The position numbers and the translations under genes are program-made. Below the pieces are notes generated by a model that did no database searches, was not told where the DNA came from, and was given only the letters and a program-made list of their open reading frames with translations. Of a stretch of 64,000 bases of DNA, positions 52,310 to 61,763 are shown one piece after another. The DNA comes from Salinibacterium hongtaonis (GTDB lineage Bacteria > Actinomycetota > Actinomycetes > Actinomycetales > Microbacteriaceae), in contig NZ_CP026951.1 in NCBI RefSeq assembly GCF_003065485.1, forward strand, positions 2,542,001 through 2,606,000, written 5' to 3'. Each line of letters starts with the position of its first letter. The first letter of the stretch is position 1.

Positions 52310-52315
52310 ATTCTA
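52310..52315 (-). promoter_or_regulatory. -10 box (TAGAAT) for a leaderless pyrE transcript
   Basis: TAGAAT, seven bases (CGACGCT), then GTG. The first three bases also serve as the TAG stop of the preceding ATPase gene. Confidence 0.5.
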
Positions 52316-54217
52316 TCGACCACGCGGGAGCTGCTTCTCATCCGGCATCTGCTCCCCCTCATCGGTGGCCGCCGCTACCGGCGATTCTGAGCCTCGCGTG
52401 GCCCGCAGCGCCCACAGAATCGAGATCACATCCACTGCTTCTTGCAGCCACGCGCCGACGATGGCTGGCAGGAGACCGGCAGCGGCCACACACATGAGAC
52501 CGATGCTGAGGCTCATCCCCACCCAGATGCTCTGCAGGGCAACCCGCACGGTCTCCCGCCCCACCAACAGAGCGGCGGCAACGCCGGAGATATCGTCGCG
52601 CAACAGCACGACATCGGCCGACTCGCTTGCGGCGGTCGCCCCCCGCGCCCCCATTGCGATGCCGATGTCGGCGGCGGCGAGAACCGGCGCATCGTTGACC
52701 CCGTCGCCGACCATCACCACCGGTCGCTCCGTGAGCGTGGCGACCGCGGTGACCTTGTCTGCCGGGAGGCAGTTTGAACGGATGTCGTCAACGCCGAGCG
52801 CCGTGCCGACGTGCTCAGCGGTGGCGCGATCATCCCCCGTGAGCATCACGACCGTTCCGATGCCCTGCGAGCGGATGCTGGCGATCGTCGACCGCGCGTT
52901 CTGCCGCACCTGGTCAGCGAAGACCAGCGCACCAGCGGGCACCCCGTCGACGGCCACATAGACCGCCATTTCTCCGGTTTCTAGAGGGGTCGCTGCCACC
53001 TCCGTATTGCATGCTGCGGCGATGAACGATCGTTTGCCCACCACGACCGTGCGCCCGTCGATCATGGCCGTAACGCCGTGAGCCGTCGACTCCTCCACCT
53101 GGTGTGAACCCCATAGCTCGATGCCTTTAGCGCGTGCGGCGCGGAGAACAGCAGCCGCGAGCACATGGGCCGAGAACTGCTCGGCAGAGGCGGCAAACCG
53201 CAGCAGTTCGTCAGCATCCGTCTCCCCCTCTGGCCGCACCTCTACGAGGCTTGGCTCCCCTTGGGTGAGGGTGCCGGTCTTATCGAAGGCGAAGGTTTTT
53301 GCCCTGCGAAATGTCTCCAGGGTCGCACTGCTCTTGACGATCACCCCGTCGCGGGCGGCCCGACTCATTCCGGCCATGAAGGCGACAGGCGCAGCGATGA
53401 TGAGCGGGCAGGGCGTTGCGACGACCAAGACCTCCGCGAAGCGAACCGCATCGCCGCTGACCGCCCAGGCTGTCCCCGCGATCGCAAGGGCAAGAAGGGT
53501 GAAGGGGATGGCGTAGCGGTCGGCGAGTCGCACGATCGGCGATTTGCTCGCGGTGGCGGCTTCTACCAGGGTGACGATCTGCTGATACTGGCTGTCCTTC
53601 GCCGCACGCGTCGCCTGAACCATGACGGCAGCGGCCCCGTTGACTCCGCCGCTGAGCACCTCATCACCCGCGACCTTGTCAACGAGCAGGCTCTCACCGG
53701 TTATGGATGACTCATCAAACGATCCCTCCGCGCTGACCAGCGTCCCATCCACGGGCACGATCTCACCGGGCCGCACCATGATCCGGTCTCCCGGCGCGAT
53801 CTCGTTAATCGGCACCTCTACAGTCGTGTCGTCGTCGGCATACCGATGCCCGGTCTGCGGTGCTCGCGACAACAGCGCACGCAGGTCACGCTCGGCTCGG
53901 TGCGCCGCGTAGTCCTCGAGCGCTTCTCCGCCCGTGAGCATGAGCACAATCACCAGCGCCGCCCAGTATTCACCGACCGCGACAGCGGCGCAGATTGCGG
54001 TGACCGCGAGGATGTCGACCCCGAAGGTGCCAGAACGAAGTTCTCGAACCATGCGCCATGCCGATCGGGCCGCGACCACGATGGCGAACCCTCCCAGCAG
54101 CCACGGCGAGAAGGGAGCCGCCGGAGTCAGCAGTATGACGCCCGCGGTCGCCGCCACCAGGAGCGTGGCGATGACATAGGGGTAGCGTCTGAGCAGCAGA
54201 ACCGGGCGCAGTTTCAT
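52313..54217 (-). CDS. Heavy-metal P1B-type ATPase with TPCP motif
   Basis: A 634-residue transporter. It has no N-terminal metal-binding (HMA) domain. Four membrane helices precede the actuator domain (SSITGESLLV). Membrane segment 4 carries TPCPLIIAAPVAF, not the usual CPC of copper and zinc pumps. The P-domain has FDKTGTLTQG and the hinge GDGVNDAPVLAAADIGIAMG. The last segments include QEAVDVISILWALRA. TPC-type pumps (the P1B-5 group) have been tied to nickel, iron or cobalt in other bacteria, so the cargo is likely a transition metal other than copper. The start is ATG 54217; an in-frame GTG at 54235 is an alternative. Confidence 0.85.
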   Translation of the reverse strand: MKLRPVLLLRRYPYVIATLLVAATAGVILLTPAAPFSPWLLGGFAIVVAARSAWRMVRELRSGTFGVDILAVTAICAAVAVGEYWAALVIVLMLTGGEALEDYAAHRAERDLRALLSRAPQTGHRYADDDTTVEVPINEIAPGDRIMVRPGEIVPVDGTLVSAEGSFDESSITGESLLVDKVAGDEVLSGGVNGAAAVMVQATRAAKDSQYQQIVTLVEAATASKSPIVRLADRYAIPFTLLALAIAGTAWAVSGDAVRFAEVLVVATPCPLIIAAPVAFMAGMSRAARDGVIVKSSATLETFRRAKTFAFDKTGTLTQGEPSLVEVRPEGETDADELLRFAASAEQFSAHVLAAAVLRAARAKGIELWGSHQVEESTAHGVTAMIDGRTVVVGKRSFIAAACNTEVAATPLETGEMAVYVAVDGVPAGALVFADQVRQNARSTIASIRSQGIGTVVMLTGDDRATAEHVGTALGVDDIRSNCLPADKVTAVATLTERPVVMVGDGVNDAPVLAAADIGIAMGARGATAASESADVVLLRDDISGVAAALLVGRETVRVALQSIWVGMSLSIGLMCVAAAGLLPAIVGAWLQEAVDVISILWALRATRGSESPVAAATDEGEQMPDEKQLPRGR

Positions 54218-54298
54218 GTCTCTGTGAGTCAACACCGCGGTAGGTCAGCTGGCACCAGGCTCACACTCAGACCCGGCAACCCCACAGGCACCTCCACA

Positions 54299-56407
54299 TC
54301 ATCCAGTGGTCGCGGTCGCGAAACCCCCCGGCGGCAGTTGCACGCTCGAACTCCCGCGGGCAACAACTCGCTTGACGAGGCTGCCGGTCGCGTCGTAGAC
54401 CCGCACCGTTGTCGTGATGCCCTCGGTGCCCATCGTGGTGGCGATGGGCCTGTCCACATTGGAGTGGGCGAGCTCTGCGGATGCCGTACCACCGGTGTAG
54501 ACAACGCGCGCGACGACGGGTCGAACGAAAAGGGCGTCGAGTTCAACGGTGCCCGCGAGAGCCCGAACGGTGATCTCGCCGCCGTCGGGCGTGGACTTCT
54601 TGAGCGGCTGCGGCAGGAGCGCACCCGGTGCAGCCGTGACGCCCTGTGCCCCCACCCCGTGCGCGAGAACTCCAATCGTGGGGGCACCGGCCTTCCACTG
54701 AGACCGGGCCGTTGCCCCCGTCGGCTGATTCACGACGGGTTCCACAAGGACCTGGTCGTCGGAGCCTTTGCCGGGGGCTCCTGGCCCGCCGGGTGCTCCG
54801 CGACCCCCGCCGCGCGCGGCCGCGGCGGCATCCGTCAGTGCTATCGTCGCCGATTGGCCGGGGAGAAGCCGCAGGTAGGCGCCTCCGCTGAACTGCGATT
54901 CGCCCGTCCATGCTGACTCCGGGGTAACGACGCTGCCGGTCGTGGTGCTCGCGGACTCCGCCTCCACAACGCGAAGGCCGTCACGCTCACCGATCGTGGA
55001 GATGGACTGCGCCCGCACCGCGACCGTGGGGTGAGCATCCAGCGCCAGCATCGACAACAGCCCGTGGATCGTGCTCTCTGCCCCCGAATTGCGGTTCACC
55101 GTGCCGTCGGGCTGCACACCATCAAAGGTGACGCCGGTTTCGGGGTTGTAGACCGGGGCGCCGGAGCGGTTCGCGCCAAAGTACCAAGCACCAACGAACC
55201 CGGCCAGGTCGAGCAGCCCCGAAGCGTGTGCCGCGTCGCCGACCGCGAGCAGCGACTGCAGCCGGGAATCTGCGCCGTAGGCGATCTGAACCTGGTCGAT
55301 GGGGGCGGGCAGCCAGGCGTTATCTGGCCCTCCCGCCGTTATCAACGTTGTCGTGAAGCCCGTCGAGTCGGCGATGGCCGGCGCGAGCAGCCGCGAATCA
55401 GCCAGGGCGACGGATGCCTCGGCGAGCGCCGCCGGCATCTGCGAGCCCCAAGCGTGCCAGAGCGATCGTGACTCCGTCCACGGAAGGATCGCCCCATACG
55501 GCCACGTCGTGATGTCGCCTGCACGCATGGCGGCGACACCCTCAGCGAGCTGTTCGAGCGCCGTGCGTGCGGCGGCATCATCTGGCGCTGCCGAAACATA
55601 GGCGGCGAGCCCGAGAATGGCCTCGGCAGAGGCATCCGCGCCTCCCGCGATGAGCCAAGCGGGCACCTCTGCGCCATCGGCGATCAGGTATTGGCCGTAC
55701 TGGCCCAGCACCTCGCGGTCCACGGCCTCGACGCCGAGCTGGAGCCGCTGCTGCAAAAACTCGGCGAAGTCGCTGTCGACGGGGGCGAAGGCTGCGTAGC
55801 CCTCGCCGAGCGCCCAGAGGGTGCGGGCGAGCCAGTAGCTGTCGCCGCTATCCGACGGGTCGGGCAGCTCAACGGGCTCGGGGCTGGGGTTGAGGGTGCC
55901 ATCCGGCTGCATCCAGAGCACCACATTGCCCGCGAACTGGCCCGTGGTTGTCTGAAAGTAGGCGAGCGAGCGCAGCAGTTCGTAGGCATGCTCTTTGCTC
56001 GTTTCTGAGCCGGTTTGTTGCCAATGCCGCAGGTAGACCACGGCGGCGCGCGATACATCGTCGGCGTTGTAGGCGCCCTGGCCCCAATAGCCGGTGGCCG
56101 GGTCGAGGGGGCCTCCTCCGACGCGTTCAAACGTGCCGCCGTCGCGGGCATCCGCATAGGTCCACGGCATCGTGAGCTCGGGTTCTTCTGCGAGGCGATA
56201 GGTCGTGTGGCCCGCGATCTCCTCGGGGCTTACGTCGTCGAGCAAGAAGTCGAGATGGGCGAGGTTGGTGAGTGATTGCCCGCCGGGCGCCGCAGCCGGG
56301 GCGATCCCCTCGGGCAGTGCGGATGCCGGGGGCGCCGACGCCGTCGGCGCGATTATGAGGCTGCCGACGAGTGCGGCACCCGCAACCATGGCGGTGGAGT
56401 GAAACAT
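54299..56407 (-). CDS. Large secreted protein, possible (alpha/alpha)-barrel glycosidase
   Basis: A 702-residue exported protein with a signal peptide (residues 1-30, ending PTASAPPASA). Residues 40-460 look like an (alpha/alpha)6 barrel of the type in glycoside hydrolases: YWGQGAYNADDVSRAAVVYL, YELLRSLAYFQTTTGQFAGN, DSYWLARTLWALGEGYAAF, WYFGANRSGAPVYNPETGV and STIHGLLSMLALDAHP. A Gly/Pro-rich linker interrupts the C-terminal half, which looks like beta-rich carbohydrate-binding modules. I cannot assign a GH family. The ATG overlaps the stop of the GH130 gene (TAATG). As the last gene of a LacI-controlled sugar operon it probably releases the sugar that the ABC importer brings in. Confidence 0.6.
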   Translation of the reverse strand: MFHSTAMVAGAALVGSLIIAPTASAPPASALPEGIAPAAAPGGQSLTNLAHLDFLLDDVSPEEIAGHTTYRLAEEPELTMPWTYADARDGGTFERVGGGPLDPATGYWGQGAYNADDVSRAAVVYLRHWQQTGSETSKEHAYELLRSLAYFQTTTGQFAGNVVLWMQPDGTLNPSPEPVELPDPSDSGDSYWLARTLWALGEGYAAFAPVDSDFAEFLQQRLQLGVEAVDREVLGQYGQYLIADGAEVPAWLIAGGADASAEAILGLAAYVSAAPDDAAARTALEQLAEGVAAMRAGDITTWPYGAILPWTESRSLWHAWGSQMPAALAEASVALADSRLLAPAIADSTGFTTTLITAGGPDNAWLPAPIDQVQIAYGADSRLQSLLAVGDAAHASGLLDLAGFVGAWYFGANRSGAPVYNPETGVTFDGVQPDGTVNRNSGAESTIHGLLSMLALDAHPTVAVRAQSISTIGERDGLRVVEAESASTTTGSVVTPESAWTGESQFSGGAYLRLLPGQSATIALTDAAAAARGGGRGAPGGPGAPGKGSDDQVLVEPVVNQPTGATARSQWKAGAPTIGVLAHGVGAQGVTAAPGALLPQPLKKSTPDGGEITVRALAGTVELDALFVRPVVARVVYTGGTASAELAHSNVDRPIATTMGTEGITTTVRVYDATGSLVKRVVARGSSSVQLPPGGFATATTG

Positions 56408-57477
56408 TATGAGGCCCTCCTGTCGAGACGGGCGACCCCAATTTTGGAGTCGGCCATGCCGTAGAAAACGAAGTACTGGTCACCGATCAACTCGATCGCG
56501 GTGGGGAAGACCACATTGGGCACAACACCGGTGCGCTCATCTTCGGTCTCCGGTGCCAGCAGCGGCTCGCTCGTGCGGGCCACGATGCGCGTCGGGTCAT
56601 CGGCATCGAGAATCATGCCGCCCACCGCATAGTTCACGTTCTGCTGCTGACCGAACGCGTGCTCGATTGTGCCGGTGACCCCGTGGTGCAGCATCAGCCA
56701 TCCCTCCGGCACGCGAAGAGGTGGCGGGCCCCCGCCGATCTTGAGTTGTTCAAAGGCGAACTCCGGCGCGGCGAGCATGCGGTGGCCTCTCCAATGCACA
56801 ATGGCCCGGATGTCGGCGAGCACGGCAGCAAGGGGCACGAAGCTGATCCAGATGCTCTGGCGCGGGTCGGTTATGCCCGCGGGCAGGCGAACCCCCTCCC
56901 CGGGCTTCGTCTCGCTGAGATTCCACATGGGGCGGTGCAGCACCGCGAGACTCTCGACCCCGTCGGGCGCTGTGACCGGCTCGGCAAAGAACACGGTGTC
57001 TTTGTTGTGGAACAGGTTGAGGTCGGTGTCGAGCGCGTCGTCGTACTCGAACAAGACGGGGCCGAGCCTCGTCCATGCGCGAAGATCCGGAGAGGTCGCA
57101 ATTGCAGTTCGCGGGCCCAACGGCCCGAAGGCCACATATGTCATGACGTGCAGATCGAGCGCGGGAATGTAGGTGATCCTGGGGTCTTCGACCCCCGCAT
57201 TGGCGACCCCCCTCTCCCAGCCGCGGTCGGGCTCCAGCACGACCCCTTCGCGTTCGACGCCGACGGGCGCGCCATCCTCAACCACTACCCGCGCGATCCC
57301 GACCCTGCTCACATTGCCTTGCGCGACAAGCCGAGGCAGCAAATAGAGCTCGCCCGCAGCCCATCCCGTTGCGGGATTGAGCACCCCCTCCGACTCGAGA
57401 GGGTCGCCCTGCCGCGGCGTCATGATCACTCCCACCCTCGTGAGCGTGTAAGGGAAGGGCGCCGTGGACGTGGTCAT
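56407..57477 (-). CDS. Glycoside hydrolase family 130 (beta-mannoside phosphorylase/hydrolase-like)
   Basis: A 356-residue cytoplasmic five-bladed beta-propeller enzyme. Family features are GVLNPATGWAAGELYLLPRLV, VANAGVEDPRITYIPALDLHVMTYVA with the catalytic Asp of ...EDPRI, KDTVFFAEP, WLMLHHGVTG and ILDADDPTRIVARTSEPLLAPE. GH130 enzymes split or phosphorolyse beta-1,2- or beta-1,4-linked mannosides. No signal peptide is present, so it works on imported oligosaccharide. ATG 57477 is taken because AAAGGG sits upstream; the first open codons further up overlap the permease gene. It is the sugar-processing enzyme of the operon. Confidence 0.9.
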   Translation of the reverse strand: MTTSTAPFPYTLTRVGVIMTPRQGDPLESEGVLNPATGWAAGELYLLPRLVAQGNVSRVGIARVVVEDGAPVGVEREGVVLEPDRGWERGVANAGVEDPRITYIPALDLHVMTYVAFGPLGPRTAIATSPDLRAWTRLGPVLFEYDDALDTDLNLFHNKDTVFFAEPVTAPDGVESLAVLHRPMWNLSETKPGEGVRLPAGITDPRQSIWISFVPLAAVLADIRAIVHWRGHRMLAAPEFAFEQLKIGGGPPPLRVPEGWLMLHHGVTGTIEHAFGQQQNVNYAVGGMILDADDPTRIVARTSEPLLAPETEDERTGVVPNVVFPTAIELIGDQYFVFYGMADSKIGVARLDRRAS

Positions 57478-57479
57478 GG

Positions 57480-58313
57480 TCACCCTTTCACACCCGACCC
57501 GATGTCGGTCGAGATGAAGTAGCGCTGGAACACGATGAACAAAACGACAACGGGCGCGGCAAGGACCACGGCACCGGCCAGAGTCGCCCCAAACGGGTTC
57601 GCGGCGGAGGCCGCGACGGTCGAAATGTAGTTCGCGAGCGACACCGCAAGCGGCTGGAGGCTCGCATCCTTGGTGATGAGGAACGGCCAAAGGAACTCGT
57701 TCCACGGGCCGATGAACGTGAGCAGCACCACCGTGACGAGGGCCGGCCGCACGAGCGGAAGGGCGATGCGCCACAGCAGCATGAGCTCACCGGCGCCGTC
57801 GATGCGCGCCGCCTCGAAGAGCTCCTTAGGCAACTGCAAGAAGTACTGCCTGAAGATGATGACCGCGGTTGAGTTGATGAGGAACGGCAGAATCATTCCG
57901 ATGTGAGTGTCGGCCAGTCCATAGTCCCTGGCGATCAGCACGTAGAGGGGAATCATCAGCAGCTGAAACGGCACCACCTGCACCAGCAGCGCCAGCGCAA
58001 ACGTTGCCCCACGGCCCCTCCACTGCAACTGCGCGAGCGCATAACCCGCGAGCACACCAAACACCATGGTGCCGATGAGAACCCCCATCGTGAAAATGCC
58101 CGAGTTCGCCAGCCCCGTCCACAGGCTGATGCGATCGTTGATCGCCACGTAGTTGTCTACCGTGATGTTGTCGGGATGGGGAAAAGCCCCGGCGATAGTG
58201 GGATCCGGTTCGGCCTGCAGCGAGCCGATCACCATGTAATAAAAGGGAAAGAGAAACGCGAATGCCCCGACGGCCAGCACAAAACCTCGAAGCCCCGTCT
58301 GAAACTTAGACAT
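57480..58313 (-). CDS. Carbohydrate ABC transporter permease (MalG-like)
   Basis: A 277-residue CUT1-family permease with six membrane segments. It starts FVLAVGAFAFLFPFYYMVIGSL, typical of MalG-like proteins, and the EAA loop is FEAARIDGAGELMLLWRIALPLVRPA. The C-terminus ends in YFISTDIGSGVKG, the standard VxGAVKG-type MalG tail. ATG 58313 overlaps the stop of the MalF-like gene (TGATG). No ATPase gene is in the operon; such systems share a common MsiK-type ATPase encoded elsewhere. Confidence 0.95.
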   Translation of the reverse strand: MSKFQTGLRGFVLAVGAFAFLFPFYYMVIGSLQAEPDPTIAGAFPHPDNITVDNYVAINDRISLWTGLANSGIFTMGVLIGTMVFGVLAGYALAQLQWRGRGATFALALLVQVVPFQLLMIPLYVLIARDYGLADTHIGMILPFLINSTAVIIFRQYFLQLPKELFEAARIDGAGELMLLWRIALPLVRPALVTVVLLTFIGPWNEFLWPFLITKDASLQPLAVSLANYISTVAASAANPFGATLAGAVVLAAPVVVLFIVFQRYFISTDIGSGVKG

Positions 58314-59296
58314 CAGTCTCGCTCCCCTACGAATCGGTTCTGCAGCCACGCGATGATGAGCACCAGGATGACCAAAATCACTCCAATGGCGGCAGCAACA
58401 TCCGGCTGGCCCTGCTGAAGTCCCCGCTGGTACATGATGAGAACGGGAGAGGCCGACGCCCCGTTCGGGCCGCCGCCCCCAGTGAGCAGGTAGGGCTCCG
58501 TGAAGAGGTTCGCCCCCGTGACGGTTGAGACGAGAAGCACCAGAACCGTCGCCGGGCGAACCCCGGGAACCGTGACCGAAAAGAAGCTGCGCACCCGTCC
58601 GGCGCCGTCGGTCGATGCCGACTCGTATAGCTCCTTGGGCACGCCCTGCAACGCGGCCAAGTAGAGCAGGATGTAGAACCCCAGCTGCTTCCACGTGACG
58701 AACAACGCGATGATGGGCATCGCCCACGTCTCACTGATCAACCACGACGGGGATGGGGCGAGCGGGCCCAGAATCTGGTTGACGAGCCCGTTGCCATTGA
58801 ACAGAAAGATCCAGACCGCCACGACCGCCACGCTCGCTGTGACGTAGGGGACGTAGTAGCTCACGCGCAAGAACGTTCTAAAGTGCACGATCTTGTTGAG
58901 TGCCGTCGCCAAAAGCAGCGACAGAACCACCGTCAGCGGCACGTTGATGAGAAGAAACACCCCGACGTTGCGGAACGACTGCAGCACTGCGGGGTCGCTG
59001 AGCACCGTTGCGAAGTTCTCGAACCCCACAAACGGCCGGTCGACCTCGGCCCCGGGCGCGGCGAAGAAAAAGTCGTGGAACGAGATCCAGAACGAATAGA
59101 TCAGCGGATACGCGAATACCAGCACCACAAAGACCAGGTAGGGCGCGCTCAGCACGAGCCCAAACGGGTTGGGGCCGAGCAGCCGCCGCTTGCGACGGGG
59201 CTGCCCGTCGGAAGCGGCGGGTGCCGCCGGCCCTGGCCCGGCCGCCCCTGCTCCCGGGGGGAGAGGCGACGCGGTCGGCGCAACGCTGCGAGTCAT
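58313..59296 (-). CDS. Carbohydrate ABC transporter permease (MalF-like)
   Basis: A 327-residue CUT1 permease. The N-terminus is a Pro/Ala-rich cytoplasmic tail (PLPPGAGAAGPGPAAPAAS), then segments start at GLVLSAPYLVFVVLVFAYPLIYSFWISF. The EAA loop reads KELYESASTDGAGRVRSFFSVTVPGVRP. ATG 59296 lies four bases after the binding-protein stop. Forms a pair with the MalG-like permease. Confidence 0.95.
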   Translation of the reverse strand: MTRSVAPTASPLPPGAGAAGPGPAAPAASDGQPRRKRRLLGPNPFGLVLSAPYLVFVVLVFAYPLIYSFWISFHDFFFAAPGAEVDRPFVGFENFATVLSDPAVLQSFRNVGVFLLINVPLTVVLSLLLATALNKIVHFRTFLRVSYYVPYVTASVAVVAVWIFLFNGNGLVNQILGPLAPSPSWLISETWAMPIIALFVTWKQLGFYILLYLAALQGVPKELYESASTDGAGRVRSFFSVTVPGVRPATVLVLLVSTVTGANLFTEPYLLTGGGGPNGASASPVLIMYQRGLQQGQPDVAAAIGVILVILVLIIAWLQNRFVGERD

Positions 59297-59300
59297 AGCG

Positions 59301-60584
59301 TTACTGCTTCTGGGCGATCTCGTTGATCTTGTCGGCAGCATCATCCAGCGCCGTTTGCACATCCTCCTCGCCAAAGATCACCGACTTCGACCAGGCATCG
59401 CGGAACGCCTGCATCATCTCCACGGTGTTGGGCCCAGCGGGAACCTCCACGGTTCGGGCGGCCTGGTCACCGAATGTTGCGTATTCCGGATTCGCGGCGA
59501 AGTAGTCGGGGAACGCCTCCTGCAGGTCAACGCGCAGCGGCATCTGGCCCGTCAGCTCCAGCAGCTGGCCATCCTGCTCCTCGCTCGTCGAGAACTTGAG
59601 CACGTCCCATGCTGTCGCGCGGTTCTCGCACGCCGAATAGAGGCCGATGTTCTTGGCGTCGCCAAACGTCCAGGTCTCCTCGGCGGGGATGCCGTCCTTG
59701 GTCGGCACCGGCACGGCACCCCAGTTCACATCCTCATAGACGGAGATCGCCCACGGGCCGACGATGGCCATTGCCGCGACACCGTCGGCAAAGGCATCGC
59801 CCTGGTGCGCCTCCTGAGAAGCCAACTTCTCCGAGTAGAGGGTCGCCCAAAAGTCGCTGGCCTCGTAGCCCTCGGCGTCGGCGAAGGTCGCCTCGCCGTC
59901 CTCCACGAACTGCTCGCCGTCGGTGGCCGCAGCAAACAGCGGGTAGAAGTCGAACTGCATTTGGAAGAACTCGCTCGTCGGCGCCGGCAAAATCGCGTTC
60001 GCGACGGTTCCCGACGACACCAGCGTGCGGGCGGTGGAGAGGAACTCGTCATACGTGGCCAAAGGCGGATTCTCGGCATCAAGCCCCGCCGCCGTGAACA
60101 GATCCTTGTTGTAGAAGATCTGCACGGGATTCGACTTCCACGGCATCTGGAAGAAGTCGCCGTCGGCGTTTTCGTACTGCGATGCGAGCTCTCCGGAACG
60201 CTCCTCGATGTACTCGGCGCCATCCTCAAACTCCGAGAGACTCACGAGGCCGCCCTGCTTTTCGAACTGACCAACGGCAGAGGGAGCGGTGTTGTAGATC
60301 AGGCAGGGCGCGTTGCCTGCGGTGATCGCCGCGCCGATAACCTCCTCGCTGCTCTTGCCAGCGGGGATCTCCTGACCCCTAATCTGCTCATCAGGATGGT
60401 CGGCGTTCCAGGCCTCGACCATTTGCTTACCCCAGGCCACCTCCTGCTCGTTGTTCGAGTACCAGATGGTGATGTCGCCGCGGCTGTCGTTAGAGCCGGA
60501 TCCACCGCCTCCTCCGCTGCAGGCGGTGAGAGCGAATGCCCCCAGCATGACAACGGCGGCGGTTGTAACTGTCCTTCTTTGCAC
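59301..60584 (-). CDS. Sugar ABC transporter solute-binding lipoprotein
   Basis: A 427-residue lipoprotein. Signal peptide with lipobox FALTAC (Cys22), then a Gly/Ser tether. The mature domain is SBP_bac_1: ITIWYSNNEQEVAWGKQMVEAWN, QIFYNKDLFTAAGLDAENPP, VAAMAIVGPWAISVYED, and the usual C-terminal helices. It delivers an oligosaccharide to the MalF/MalG-like permeases. AGGAGAG precedes the ATG. With the GH130 enzyme downstream, a mannose-containing oligosaccharide is a reasonable guess. Confidence 0.94.
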   Translation of the reverse strand: MQRRTVTTAAVVMLGAFALTACSGGGGGSGSNDSRGDITIWYSNNEQEVAWGKQMVEAWNADHPDEQIRGQEIPAGKSSEEVIGAAITAGNAPCLIYNTAPSAVGQFEKQGGLVSLSEFEDGAEYIEERSGELASQYENADGDFFQMPWKSNPVQIFYNKDLFTAAGLDAENPPLATYDEFLSTARTLVSSGTVANAILPAPTSEFFQMQFDFYPLFAAATDGEQFVEDGEATFADAEGYEASDFWATLYSEKLASQEAHQGDAFADGVAAMAIVGPWAISVYEDVNWGAVPVPTKDGIPAEETWTFGDAKNIGLYSACENRATAWDVLKFSTSEEQDGQLLELTGQMPLRVDLQEAFPDYFAANPEYATFGDQAARTVEVPAGPNTVEMMQAFRDAWSKSVIFGEEDVQTALDDAADKINEIAQKQ

Positions 60585-60611
60585 AGTTCTCTCCTTCGAT
60601 TGTGACGGGCT

Positions 60612-61676
60612 TTAGGCGATCGACTTTTCGGCGCTAAGCGCCGTAGTGGCACGGTGTTGAACGGGGCTTGCGGTTGACTCGCGCACGACGAGCCGGGCGG
60701 GTTCCAGTTCACTGTCAGCCACGTCCAGGCCCGCGATCAGAGAAAGAAGGGCCCTGGCGGATGCTCCGCCCCACTCCTGCACCGAGGTCACCACGGTGGT
60801 CAGGGCGGGAAAGTTGTGGCGCCCCGCCTCGCCCCCATCGAACCCCGTCACCGACAGGTCTTCTGGCACGCGCAGCCCGAGCCGCTGGGCGACCCCCATC
60901 CCCGCGAGAGCCATGGGATCGTTCGCGTAGACGATCGCTGTCGGCGGATGCTCAAGCGCCAACAGATCACGGGTCGCCTTGGCGCCGCCCTGGGCCGTGA
61001 AATCCGCCTCGACCACGAGGTCGGGGCGCAGGCCATGCAGGGTCAGCGCCTCAGAGAACGCCATCGACCTGCGGGCGGCGTGCAGCATCCCGCTCGATCC
61101 TGCGACATGCGCGATGCGGCGGTGGCCGAGATCCACGAGGTGATCGACGGCGGCGCGGATGCCCGGCGCATCGTCGACAGAGACGGCGGGGAACTCGGAG
61201 TGCTGCTGGGGATGACCGAGGGTGACGGCGAGCAACCCCAGCTCCCGCAGAAGGGGCACGCGGGAGTCTGACTCCCGCAGGTCGGTGAGGATGACGCCGT
61301 CGACCCGGTCATGGGCAACGAGCTGCCGATAGGTCTCGTGCTCGGCACGTTCGTCGGGAACCATGCTCAGCACGAGGGCCTGCCCCACCGGCGCAAGCGC
61401 GGCCTCGATGCCGGCGATGAAGGCCGGAAAGAACGAGTCCTCCGAAATCACAGCGGGGTCGCGGGCGATGACAAGGCCGAGAGCATAGGCGCGGGCTGTG
61501 GTGAGTGAACGCGCGCGCACGCTCGGAACCCAGCCGAGTTCGCCAGCGGCTCGCAGGATGCGGTCCCTCGACTGTGGGGCGACGCCCGGTTTGCCGTTCA
61601 GGGCGAAGGAGACGAGCGACTTGCTCACCCCGGCGGCACGAGCAACGTCATCGATCGTGGCGCGTTGCTTAACCAT
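60612..61676 (-). CDS. LacI-family transcriptional repressor of the sugar operon
   Basis: A 354-residue repressor. The HTH is at residues 6-28 (ATIDDVARAAGVSKSLVSFAL) with the hinge helix RARSLTTARAYALG. The sugar-binding core shows GLVIARDPA, FFPAFIAGIEAAL, DGVILTDL, and TAIVYANDPMALAGMG. GAGGAGG precedes ATG 61676. It is the first gene of the operon, so it controls itself and the transport/GH130 genes, probably through the palindrome at 61750. The inducer is likely the imported sugar. Confidence 0.95.
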   Translation of the reverse strand: MVKQRATIDDVARAAGVSKSLVSFALNGKPGVAPQSRDRILRAAGELGWVPSVRARSLTTARAYALGLVIARDPAVISEDSFFPAFIAGIEAALAPVGQALVLSMVPDERAEHETYRQLVAHDRVDGVILTDLRESDSRVPLLRELGLLAVTLGHPQQHSEFPAVSVDDAPGIRAAVDHLVDLGHRRIAHVAGSSGMLHAARRSMAFSEALTLHGLRPDLVVEADFTAQGGAKATRDLLALEHPPTAIVYANDPMALAGMGVAQRLGLRVPEDLSVTGFDGGEAGRHNFPALTTVVTSVQEWGGASARALLSLIAGLDVADSELEPARLVVRESTASPVQHRATTALSAEKSIA

Positions 61677-61749
61677 CGCGGCCTCCTCGTCGAGCGCCCG
61701 GCATCATCCGGAATCGTCCGCGAGGCGACGCTGCGCCACCGCCTCTGGC

Positions 61750-61763
61750 CTAAACCGGTTTAG
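61750..61763. promoter_or_regulatory. LacI-type operator upstream of the lacI-led operon
   Basis: CTAAACCGGTTTAG is a perfect 14-bp palindrome with the central CG expected for LacI-family operators. It lies 74 bp before the LacI start codon and 57 bp past the end of mmsA. Confidence 0.85.

Follow-up and report, generated by a model that had tools for sequence, protein, structure and literature searches.

A LacI-GH130 operon of Salinibacterium hongtaonis encodes a predicted secreted (α/α)6-barrel protein that may free β-mannosyl oligosaccharides for import

The window analyzed here is a 64,000-nucleotide stretch of contig NZ_CP026951.1 from Salinibacterium hongtaonis, a member of the Microbacteriaceae (positions 2,542,001 to 2,606,000). 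Between its positions 54299 and 61763 lie tightly packed genes, all on the minus strand, which follow an operator-like palindrome in the order LacI, lipoprotein solute-binding protein (SBP), permease 1, permease 2, GH130, and a 702-residue barrel protein. The LacI-family repressor (354 aa; 60612 to 61676) matches Pfam LacI and Peripla_BP_3, and the solute-binding lipoprotein (427 aa; 59301 to 60584) matches SBP_bac_1 (3.7e-24) and has an LTAC lipobox recognized by eye. ABC permease 1 (58313 to 59284; BPD_transp_1, 1.2e-13) is closest in NCBIfam to UgpA, with a score under the cutoff, and its stop shares 1 base with the start of ABC permease 2 (57480 to 58313; BPD_transp_1, 1.3e-18). The GH130 gene (56407 to 57477; Glyco_hydro_130, 2.5e-34) encodes a protein without an export signal, and its stop has 1 base in common with the ATG (56405 to 56407) of the gene for the barrel protein (54299 to 56407). 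The Pfam results bear out the operon composition given in the initial annotation (LacI, binding protein, two permeases, and GH130), and the last open reading frame does encode the 702 residues reported there. This reading frame is not a chance one, because 327 loci with homologues were found, and in the top-ranking 80 of them, referred to here as the named loci, the encoded proteins are 53 to 66% identical in the best segment. In 76 of these 80 loci, the SBP, both permeases, and GH130 are found in the same locus. The barrel gene is absent from 4 of 4 genomes of the same genus. A scan for promoters and terminators gave counts similar to those from shuffled sequence (promoter-like, 0 versus 0.8; terminator-like, 7 versus 4.7 with a standard deviation of 2.3).

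The operator-like site is a perfect palindrome, CTAAACCGGTTTAG, at 61750 to 61763 (no strand assigned), upstream of lacI and ending at the right edge of the locus. It is the sole match at ≤2 mismatches within the 64-kb window (0.00 expected), and in the 2.81-Mb genome the exact sequence is present only once, with 1 further site at 2 mismatches. Seventy-five of the 80 named loci were usable for counting this site, and 57 of the 75 have a copy (≤2 mismatches) upstream of lacI or the SBP gene, while 1 site was found in 1.24 Mb elsewhere. As a control for this count, 199 shuffled palindromes were searched, and these matched at best 1 locus each.

The AF2 model of the 702-residue protein (pLDDT 85, pTM 0.87) consists of an (α/α)6 barrel followed by β modules, so structure prediction and fold search agree with the architecture that had been proposed from the initial annotation. 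An N-terminal hydrophobic export signal at about residues 1 to 30 (56318 to 56407) was identified by a hydrophobicity heuristic. It is followed by the barrel domain (residues 45 to 470; 54998 to 56275), a CBM6/35/36-like β-sandwich (residues ~475 to 631; 54515 to 54985), and a small β domain (residues ~632 to 702; 54302 to 54514) that is delimited by the C-terminal model and scarcely reached by fold matches. Of 65 barrel homologues, 59 have a hydrophobic stretch ahead of the mature start, compared with 0 of 34 GH130 controls, for an unequal search length of 65 residues before the barrels and 20 before the GH130s. Based on these features, the barrel protein is predicted to be secreted. The assignment of residues 475 to 631 as CBM-like comes from the C-terminal model and fold matches, and a Pfam scan of the 702-residue protein gives no match. 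These residues match many CBM6/35/36 structures with Z scores of 11 to 14 across 108 to 128 residues, and they match insecticidal-toxin and other domains likewise. The top CBM fold match is the CBM35 of PaMan26A (3zm8; Z 13.8), followed by CBM6 structures at Z ~13, while the Foldseek ranking for the module places Cry toxin and GH87 chains on top (E ~1e-4).

No family in Pfam, NCBIfam, or PHROGs matches the 702-residue protein, so that neither a known noncarbohydrate family nor any other curated family was found for the barrel. The initial annotation had suggested a new family, which stands with respect to these collections; the family is not wholly unseen, however, since one relative identified by sequence has a solved structure. 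This is YPO2471, a putative exported protein of Yersinia (7TEM; E 4e-29), which matches the barrel in fold with a Z score of 32.5, an rmsd of 2.1, and 387 aligned residues at 26% identity. The likeness in sequence and fold extends across the whole barrel, and the motifs DD..R, DG, and N.GAES (DDvaRA, FDG, and NSGAEST in YPO2471) are common to both proteins, which places them in the same family. The solved construct has 427 residues, compared with 702 in the window protein, and the match is confined to the barrel. A limited literature search for YPO2471 gave no paper, and in an AlphaFold benchmark paper 7TEM appears merely as one of the listed entries.

Comparison of 31 barrels revealed 13 near-invariant residues, including D116, D117, R120, R195, D429, and E444. 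(Of the alignments used, A2 contains 47 of the 80 named loci plus the window, and A7 contains 24 barrels.) D116, D117, and R120 belong to a DDVSR motif (56048 to 56062, minus strand), conserved in the family, that opens helix 115-132. D429 is present in 31 of 31 barrels and the adjoining G430 in 30 of 31 (55118 to 55123, minus strand), and E444, which is also present in 31 of 31, lies in a GAES motif (55073 to 55084, minus strand) that opens helix 443-457. The initial annotation depended on a plausible acidic active site, for which D116/D117, D429, and E444 are plausible candidates by conservation.

The pairing of this gene with GH130 in other genomes is far above chance. Of 55 barrel genomes, 45 have a GH130 gene, and in 37 such a gene lies within 5 kb of the barrel gene, with gene order and strand differing among them. 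In a set of 396 evenly drawn genomes, GH130 was detected in 34 of 45 genomes with a barrel-profile match versus 21 of the 351 genomes without one (Fisher p = 3e-25, with relatedness ignored). For this test, GH130 was called at E ≤0.001, which gave 55 genomes; 52 of these pass the curated cutoff, and the other 3 have no barrel. The distance count omits the genome of the window and genome G323, where nothing beyond the CBM-like part is matched, whereas the 45 of 396 include both genomes; fragments were kept in the barrel counts (e.g., in G364, G408, G256, G309, and G387). On a Gemmatirosa plasmid, the barrel is encoded in one frame with an SBP of the window-operon type and is adjoined by two GH130 genes and permeases, and a Sphingomonas plasmid carries LacI, barrel, SBP, permeases, GH130, and UgpC together. 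When the Sphingomonas barrel was used as a query against a plasmid collection, the sole addition was Sphingomonas paeninsulae.

No GH130 was detected in the remaining ten barrel genomes. Eight of these carry GH94, a family of β-glucoside phosphorylases, and two (G070 and G107) have neither; the GH94 search covered 41 of the 55 genomes. The single GH94 partner that we looked at is closest to cellobiose phosphorylases. Because one branch pairs with GH94, the barrel family as a whole is not tied to mannose, and the barrel itself need not be specific for mannose. In some distant members of the family, the barrel is fused to a GT4 transferase, and a Pfam search of ten open reading frames near GT4-barrel loci found GH130, GH94, and unrelated genes, with no other mannose genes.

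The window GH130 scores 119 bits against a Pfam cutoff of 26 and has the catalytic ED motif in GVEDPRI. In the A4 alignment, which was read by eye to type the GH130 proteins, it has the HRP and KIGGGPPP sequences of the phosphorylase rows and not the GEG or LVE.G of the hydrolase-type rows. Basic motifs mark the phosphorylases of GH130, and equivalents of Glu227 and Glu268 mark the hydrolases. A hydrolase-type appearance was found in 5 of the 23 linked GH130 proteins (L055, L056, L057, the second L063 gene, and L166). Typing by regular expression on stop-to-stop open reading frames was rejected for false hydrolase calls, e.g., at L049, where N-terminal sequence matched the motif. Lys160 of the window GH130 aligns with Lys199 of BT3780, a determinant of β-1,2 specificity, and a Lys occupies this position in 22 of the 23 linked rows. 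A profile of the 23 linked proteins searched against the PDB scored 279, 277, and 251 bits on the β-1,2-mannoside phosphorylases 9fj8, 7fip, and 5b0p, compared with 233 bits on 5a7v (which we take to be BT3780 from its residue numbers), 223 on the β-1,4 enzyme TM1225, and 183 on UhgbMP. As a profile, the linked GH130 proteins are therefore nearest in sequence to β-1,2-mannoside enzymes. The window GH130 alone is far from the characterized enzymes and separates them by a modest margin (98.6 bits for β-1,2 versus 80.6 for the β-1,4 enzyme TM1225); its top NCBIfam match is β-1,2-mannobiose phosphorylase NF052550, at 126.3 bits, below the equivalog cutoff of 450. A limited literature search for GH130 together with Microbacterium gave no match.

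Based on these observations, we judge it slightly better than an even proposition that the 702-residue protein is exported and acts as a glycoside hydrolase, releasing β-mannosyl oligosaccharides with probable β-1,2 linkages that are then imported and cleaved by GH130. The CBM6/35-like module would anchor the enzyme on a mannose-containing glycan, which carboxylates among D116/D117, D429, and E444 would cleave, presumably by endo action, to short β-mannosyl oligosaccharides in which the linkage is most likely β-1,2. Uptake would proceed through the lipoprotein SBP and both permeases, driven by an ATPase whose gene lies at another place in the genome. GH130 in the cytoplasm would then split the imported oligosaccharides, here probably with phosphate to give α-mannose 1-phosphate, and LacI would bind CTAAACCGGTTTAG and repress the operon for as long as no sugar inducer is present. 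The hypothesis in the initial annotation that the barrel may release β-mannosides for the importer has gained far stronger genomic support.

A related cluster, Teth514_1785-1796 of Thermoanaerobacter sp. X-514, has been suggested to take up 1,2-β-oligomannan and degrade it by phosphorolysis (PMC4264767). Like the window operon, it includes an SBP, two permeases, and GH130 β-1,2-mannoside phosphorylases; unlike the window operon, it has two ATP-binding proteins, GH5, GT4, and GDP-mannose genes (PMC4264767). We found no secreted (α/α)6 barrel in its published description, but the cluster does include the hypothetical proteins 1785 and 1791 (PMC4264767).

The fold of the barrel alone does not tell its function, because beyond the barrel family the closest folds are those of sugar 2-epimerases of the AGE superfamily (Z 17 to 21, one of them a mannobiose complex), and other helical barrels such as drimenyl diphosphate synthases also reach Z 18. 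Mannobiose and cellobiose 2-epimerases are partners of GH130 in known β-1,4-mannan pathways, and together with the shared (α/α)6 fold this raises the possibility that the barrel is a 2-epimerase or an isomerase whose target is the reducing-end sugar of an oligosaccharide. AGE 2-epimerases depend on a catalytic His, however, and the sole His among residues conserved at ≥70% in the barrels is H51, which is replaced by Gln in 5 of 31. Neither was a convincing sequence relation found: comparison with an AGE profile gave a probability of 4% (a weak test, with a two-sequence profile), and the best epimerase-type PDB matches have an E value of 0.004 over ~100 residues. Since a reducing-end epimerase also makes little sense for a predicted secreted protein with a CBM-like module, we regard this explanation as improbable. 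The 8wbu entry among the AGE fold matches is that of an H247F mutant. GH76 endo-α-1,6-mannanases likewise have the (α/α)6 fold (Z 17 to 19) and a DD motif, which pairs with D116-D117 in the only profile alignment obtained, and BT3780 is described as targeting the β-1,2-linked mannose that caps Candida mannan (PMC4599007). The barrel might accordingly be a GH76-type endo-α-mannanase that cuts the α-linked backbone of yeast mannan and frees oligosaccharides whose β-1,2-mannose caps are taken by GH130. That alignment has a probability of 0.2% with a thin profile of three GH76 sequences, however, and Pfam GH76 matches neither the window protein (E ≤1) nor 24 barrels (E ≤0.01); the best GH76 matches in the PDB have an E value of 0.005 over ~130 residues. 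The operon genes include no α-mannosidase, and the presence of GH130 or GH94 beside the GT4-fused barrels would be left unexplained, so that we consider a GH76-type activity unlikely. As for GH88/GH105, the window barrel has no Pfam GH88 match, while two of the 24 family members searched have one at E ≤0.01, including the L080 barrel, which passes the GH88 cutoff (29.0 versus 26.6 bits) over ~110 residues; a profile comparison with GH88 (a weak test, with a one-sequence profile) gave nothing usable.

The GH130 family spans β-1,2, β-1,3, β-1,4-Man-Glc, Man-GlcNAc, and Man-GlcA linkages (PMC8950772), and the barrel could be a hydrolase for a linkage other than β-1,2, for example in β-1,4-mannan, glucomannan, Manβ-GlcNAc, or a bacterial exopolysaccharide, with GH130 trimming one β-mannose from a mixed oligosaccharide. 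The top CBM match, which belongs to a β-1,4-mannanase, and the cellobiose phosphorylase-like GH94 partner are both consistent with this. Against it, the linked GH130 profile places β-1,2 enzymes first and nearly all rows have the Lys at the BT3780 Lys199 position, and we think another linkage rather unlikely. A noncatalytic barrel that binds glycans and passes them to the SBP would fit the Gemmatirosa barrel-SBP fusion too. We consider this very improbable, since acidic and Arg residues conserved family-wide at helix starts are typical of an active site and the GT4-fused versions have no need of a capture domain.

Returning to the secreted β-mannoside-releasing hydrolase that we favor, the use of β-1,2-mannosides by GH130 is already known, but for the preceding, polymer-degrading step a limited literature search found no enzyme that breaks down β-1,2-mannan polymer. 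The barrel family is widespread and includes a solved yet unexplained structure, and it now has a proposed substrate class that can be tested and candidate catalytic residues, while the conserved LacI-type operator offers a ready-made reporter. If the proposal is correct, it would add one more glycoside hydrolase family, account for the orphan structure 7TEM, and provide a tool to cut yeast β-mannan epitopes. A broader and more doubtful extension is that the barrels form a new glycoside hydrolase family that depolymerizes β-1,2-mannan, either secreted with a CBM and an importer for scavenging or fused to GT4 beside GH130, presumably in the cytosol, for turnover of a mannogen-like reserve, with the sister branch acting likewise on β-glucan together with GH94. 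The clusters of GT4, barrel, and phosphorylase may point to an as yet unexplored glycan inside bacterial cells.

On the minus strand, an operator-like palindrome (61750-61763) is followed by genes for LacI, a solute-binding lipoprotein (SBP), two permeases, a GH130 enzyme (56407-57477), and a 702-residue protein (54299-56407). This is the operon described in the initial annotation, and the Pfam families agree with it. A one-base overlap joins the GH130 gene to the 702-residue gene, and another joins the two permease genes; the whole set is therefore very probably transcribed as a unit. The operon is accessory within the genus, since the gene for the 702-residue protein is absent from all four same-genus genomes examined. 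There is no ATPase gene within the operon. Actinobacterial sugar importers usually share one ATPase encoded elsewhere, and the nearest UgpC-type ATPase in the 2.81-Mb host genome (321255-322244) is 54% identical to a Sphingomonas UgpC. A P-type ATPase gene on the same strand (52313-54235), which begins 63 bases downstream of the stop of the 702-residue gene, is probably unrelated to the operon.

The 702-residue protein has no match among Pfam, NCBIfam, or PHROGs models. Its sole clear solved relative by sequence is 7TEM (E 4e-29), the structure of YPO2471, an exported Yersinia protein without assigned function on which a literature search found no paper; with a family profile, 7TEM scores E 1.6e-57 and the next best solved structure 0.0015. 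As had been suspected from the sequence, the protein is predicted to be an (α/α) barrel with C-terminal β modules. With 48 sequences as input, AF2 gives a model (pLDDT 85, pTM 0.87) in which 12 long helices pair into six hairpins, and residues 45 to 470 match 7TEM with a Z of 32.5 (rmsd 2.1, 387 residues). The following fold matches are sugar 2-epimerases (Z 17-21), GH76 α-mannanases (17-19), terpene synthases (18), and a methylmannose polysaccharide hydrolase (17.6), a mixture of functions from which the fold alone cannot tell what the barrel does. In the C-terminal part, modelled separately (pLDDT 86.5), a predicted β-sandwich at about residues 475 to 631 resembles CBM35, CBM6, and CBM36 modules; its best fold row is the CBM35 of mannanase PaMan26A (Z 13.8 over 118 residues), and Foldseek itself ranks Cry toxin and GH87 chains highest for this part (E about 1e-4). 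A small β domain, barely covered by the fold searches, is predicted after it. In a same-family genome, a 724-residue frame matches the CBM-like module at its start alone (G323:C1:2323690-2323869), and other proteins may therefore carry this module too. By a hydrophobicity heuristic rather than a signal-peptide predictor, 59 of the 65 homologues tested have a hydrophobic stretch at the N terminus, against none of 34 GH130 controls, which were scanned over a shorter stretch.

Among 31 barrels compared (10 close and 21 distant), D429, E444, and W408 are invariant, R195 and D117 occur in 30 (the lone exception for D117 is a fragment), and D116 and R120 occur in 29; N413, G430, N440, G442, A443, and S445 are nearly invariant, and a separate 24-sequence alignment agrees. 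In the model, D116 and D117 open helix 115-132 and E444 opens helix 443-457. Enzymes of the (α/α)6 type carry their active site at such helix starts. The sole conserved histidine, H51, is replaced by glutamine in 5 of the 31, which argues against an epimerase.

The gene pair, proposed for a search in other genomes, recurs widely: of 55 barrel genomes besides that of S. hongtaonis, 45 contain GH130, 37 of them within 5 kb of the barrel, and in some that lack a nearby GH130 a contig edge falls inside the operon (e.g., G099 and G152). An even sample of 396 genomes from the phylum shows GH130 in 34 of the 45 that match the barrel profile and in 21 of the 351 that do not (Fisher p 3e-25, with species not independent). 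Since the barrel may lie after GH130, before it, between it and the permeases, or divergently, the pairing survives rearrangement. Among the best 80 of 327 relatives, 77 loci have GH130 and 76 have SBP, both permeases, and GH130; of the other four, L101, L142, and L156 are at contig edges and L115 has no operon within 8 kb. A Sphingomonas hankookensis plasmid carries LacI, barrel, SBP, permeases, GH130, DUF1861, and UgpC. The DUF1861 gene lies directly 3' of GH130 (L087:14351-15292), which places its product in what is likely a mannoside pathway. On Gemmatirosa kalamazoonensis plasmid 2, barrel and SBP form a single 1024-codon open frame (L088:8194-11265) that adjoins two GH130 genes and two permease genes; its SBP is homologous to that of S. 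hongtaonis (2e-55), and no signal sequence is visible between the two parts. It looks like a naturally occurring fusion of enzyme and receptor within a sugar importer, although a stop codon may have been lost by sequencing error. Because the SBP is the sugar-capturing protein, no other single finding hints as strongly that the imported sugar is what the barrel produces.

A profile of 23 barrel-linked GH130s, scored on solved GH130s whose specificities were taken from excerpts of PMC8950772, is highest for 1,2-β-oligomannan phosphorylase (279 bits), β-1,2-mannobiose phosphorylase (277), and Lin0857 (β-1,2; 251), followed by the uncharacterised 4onz (237), 5a7v (233; equated from residue numbers with BT3780, a β-1,2-mannosidase), and 3qc2 (231). 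Lower are TM1225 (β-1,4; 223) and then further hydrolases and the mannoside synthase Uhgb_MS (216), with β-1,4 phosphorylase (193), UhgbMP (183), and mannosylglucose phosphorylases (131 and 123) at the bottom. Lys199 of BT3780, the β-1,2 determinant according to an excerpt of Cuskin et al. (PMC4599007), aligns with Lys160 of the S. hongtaonis GH130 after a numbering offset of 4 fixed by Glu141-Asp142; lysine is found there in 22 of the 23, and arginine in Sphingomonas. As a caution against reading too much into these results, the S. hongtaonis GH130 as a single sequence has only a modest preference for β-1,2 over β-1,4 relatives (98.6 versus 80.6 bits) and scores far under the NCBIfam β-1,2 cut-off. 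In an alignment read by eye, it has phosphorylase-type motifs, and 5 of the 23 carry the hydrolases' Glu227 and Glu268 positions. These hydrolase-type motifs (GEG, LVE.G) are in L055, L056, L057, L166, and the second GH130 of L063; the others are phosphorylase-type. Such a mixture of chemistries behind one kind of barrel would be expected if the barrel supplied the substrate and GH130 only completed its breakdown.

The wider family has a second partner. GH130 is missing from 10 barrel genomes, 8 of which carry GH94 1.0 to 1.7 kb downstream of the barrel, although what lies there in G188 is no more than a 46-position piece scoring just below the cut-off, the main match being on another contig; neither was found in G070 and G107. 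In a ninth GH94 genome, G288, GH94 is 3.6 kb from the barrel and GH130 is on another contig. The remaining 32 of the 41 barrel genomes searched lack GH94. The nine are G087, G145, G156, G188, G274, G288, G306, G367, and G376, eight of them without GH130. The one GH94 partner examined is nearest to cellobiose phosphorylases. Barrels thus tend to pair with an inverting glycoside phosphorylase (or hydrolytic cousin) from either of two unrelated families, which supports making or presenting short β-glycosides as their general job and cautions that sugars besides mannose may be involved. The original suggestion, a new family of enzymes that release β-mannosides for import, is still the best reading: the absence of a known family and the GH130 linkage favor it, and the GH94 branch weakens its restriction to mannose. 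We lean slightly toward a secreted hydrolase that feeds GH130; the bolder reading, a β-1,2-mannanase, we consider rather unlikely, and a literature search found no endo-acting β-1,2-mannan enzyme among the matches listed.

Of 19 distant barrel frames scanned with Pfam, 4 (L070, L076, L079, and L084) are fused to a GT4 glycosyltransferase; three lie 0.1 to 0.2 kb from GH130, and the fourth (L079:70-5515, in G274) adjoins GH94. A cluster on a Sphingomonas paeninsulae conjugative plasmid (L172:461-10258) contains GH130, HAD-IIB hydrolase, acetate kinase, GT4, and phosphomannose isomerase; small annotated frames in it give a partial match to the barrel.

The palindrome CTAAACCGGTTTAG is likely the LacI operator of a local regulon. 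It occurs once in the window (0.00 expected), and the host genome has one exact site and one with 2 mismatches; because the reversed pattern, allowed up to 2 mismatches, hits each strand 4 times, loose genomic matches are meaningless. With at most 2 mismatches, it lies within 400 bp upstream of lacI or the SBP gene in 57 of 75 loci, many of them twice, and at one site elsewhere in 1.24 Mb, while none of 199 shuffled palindromes reached more than one locus.
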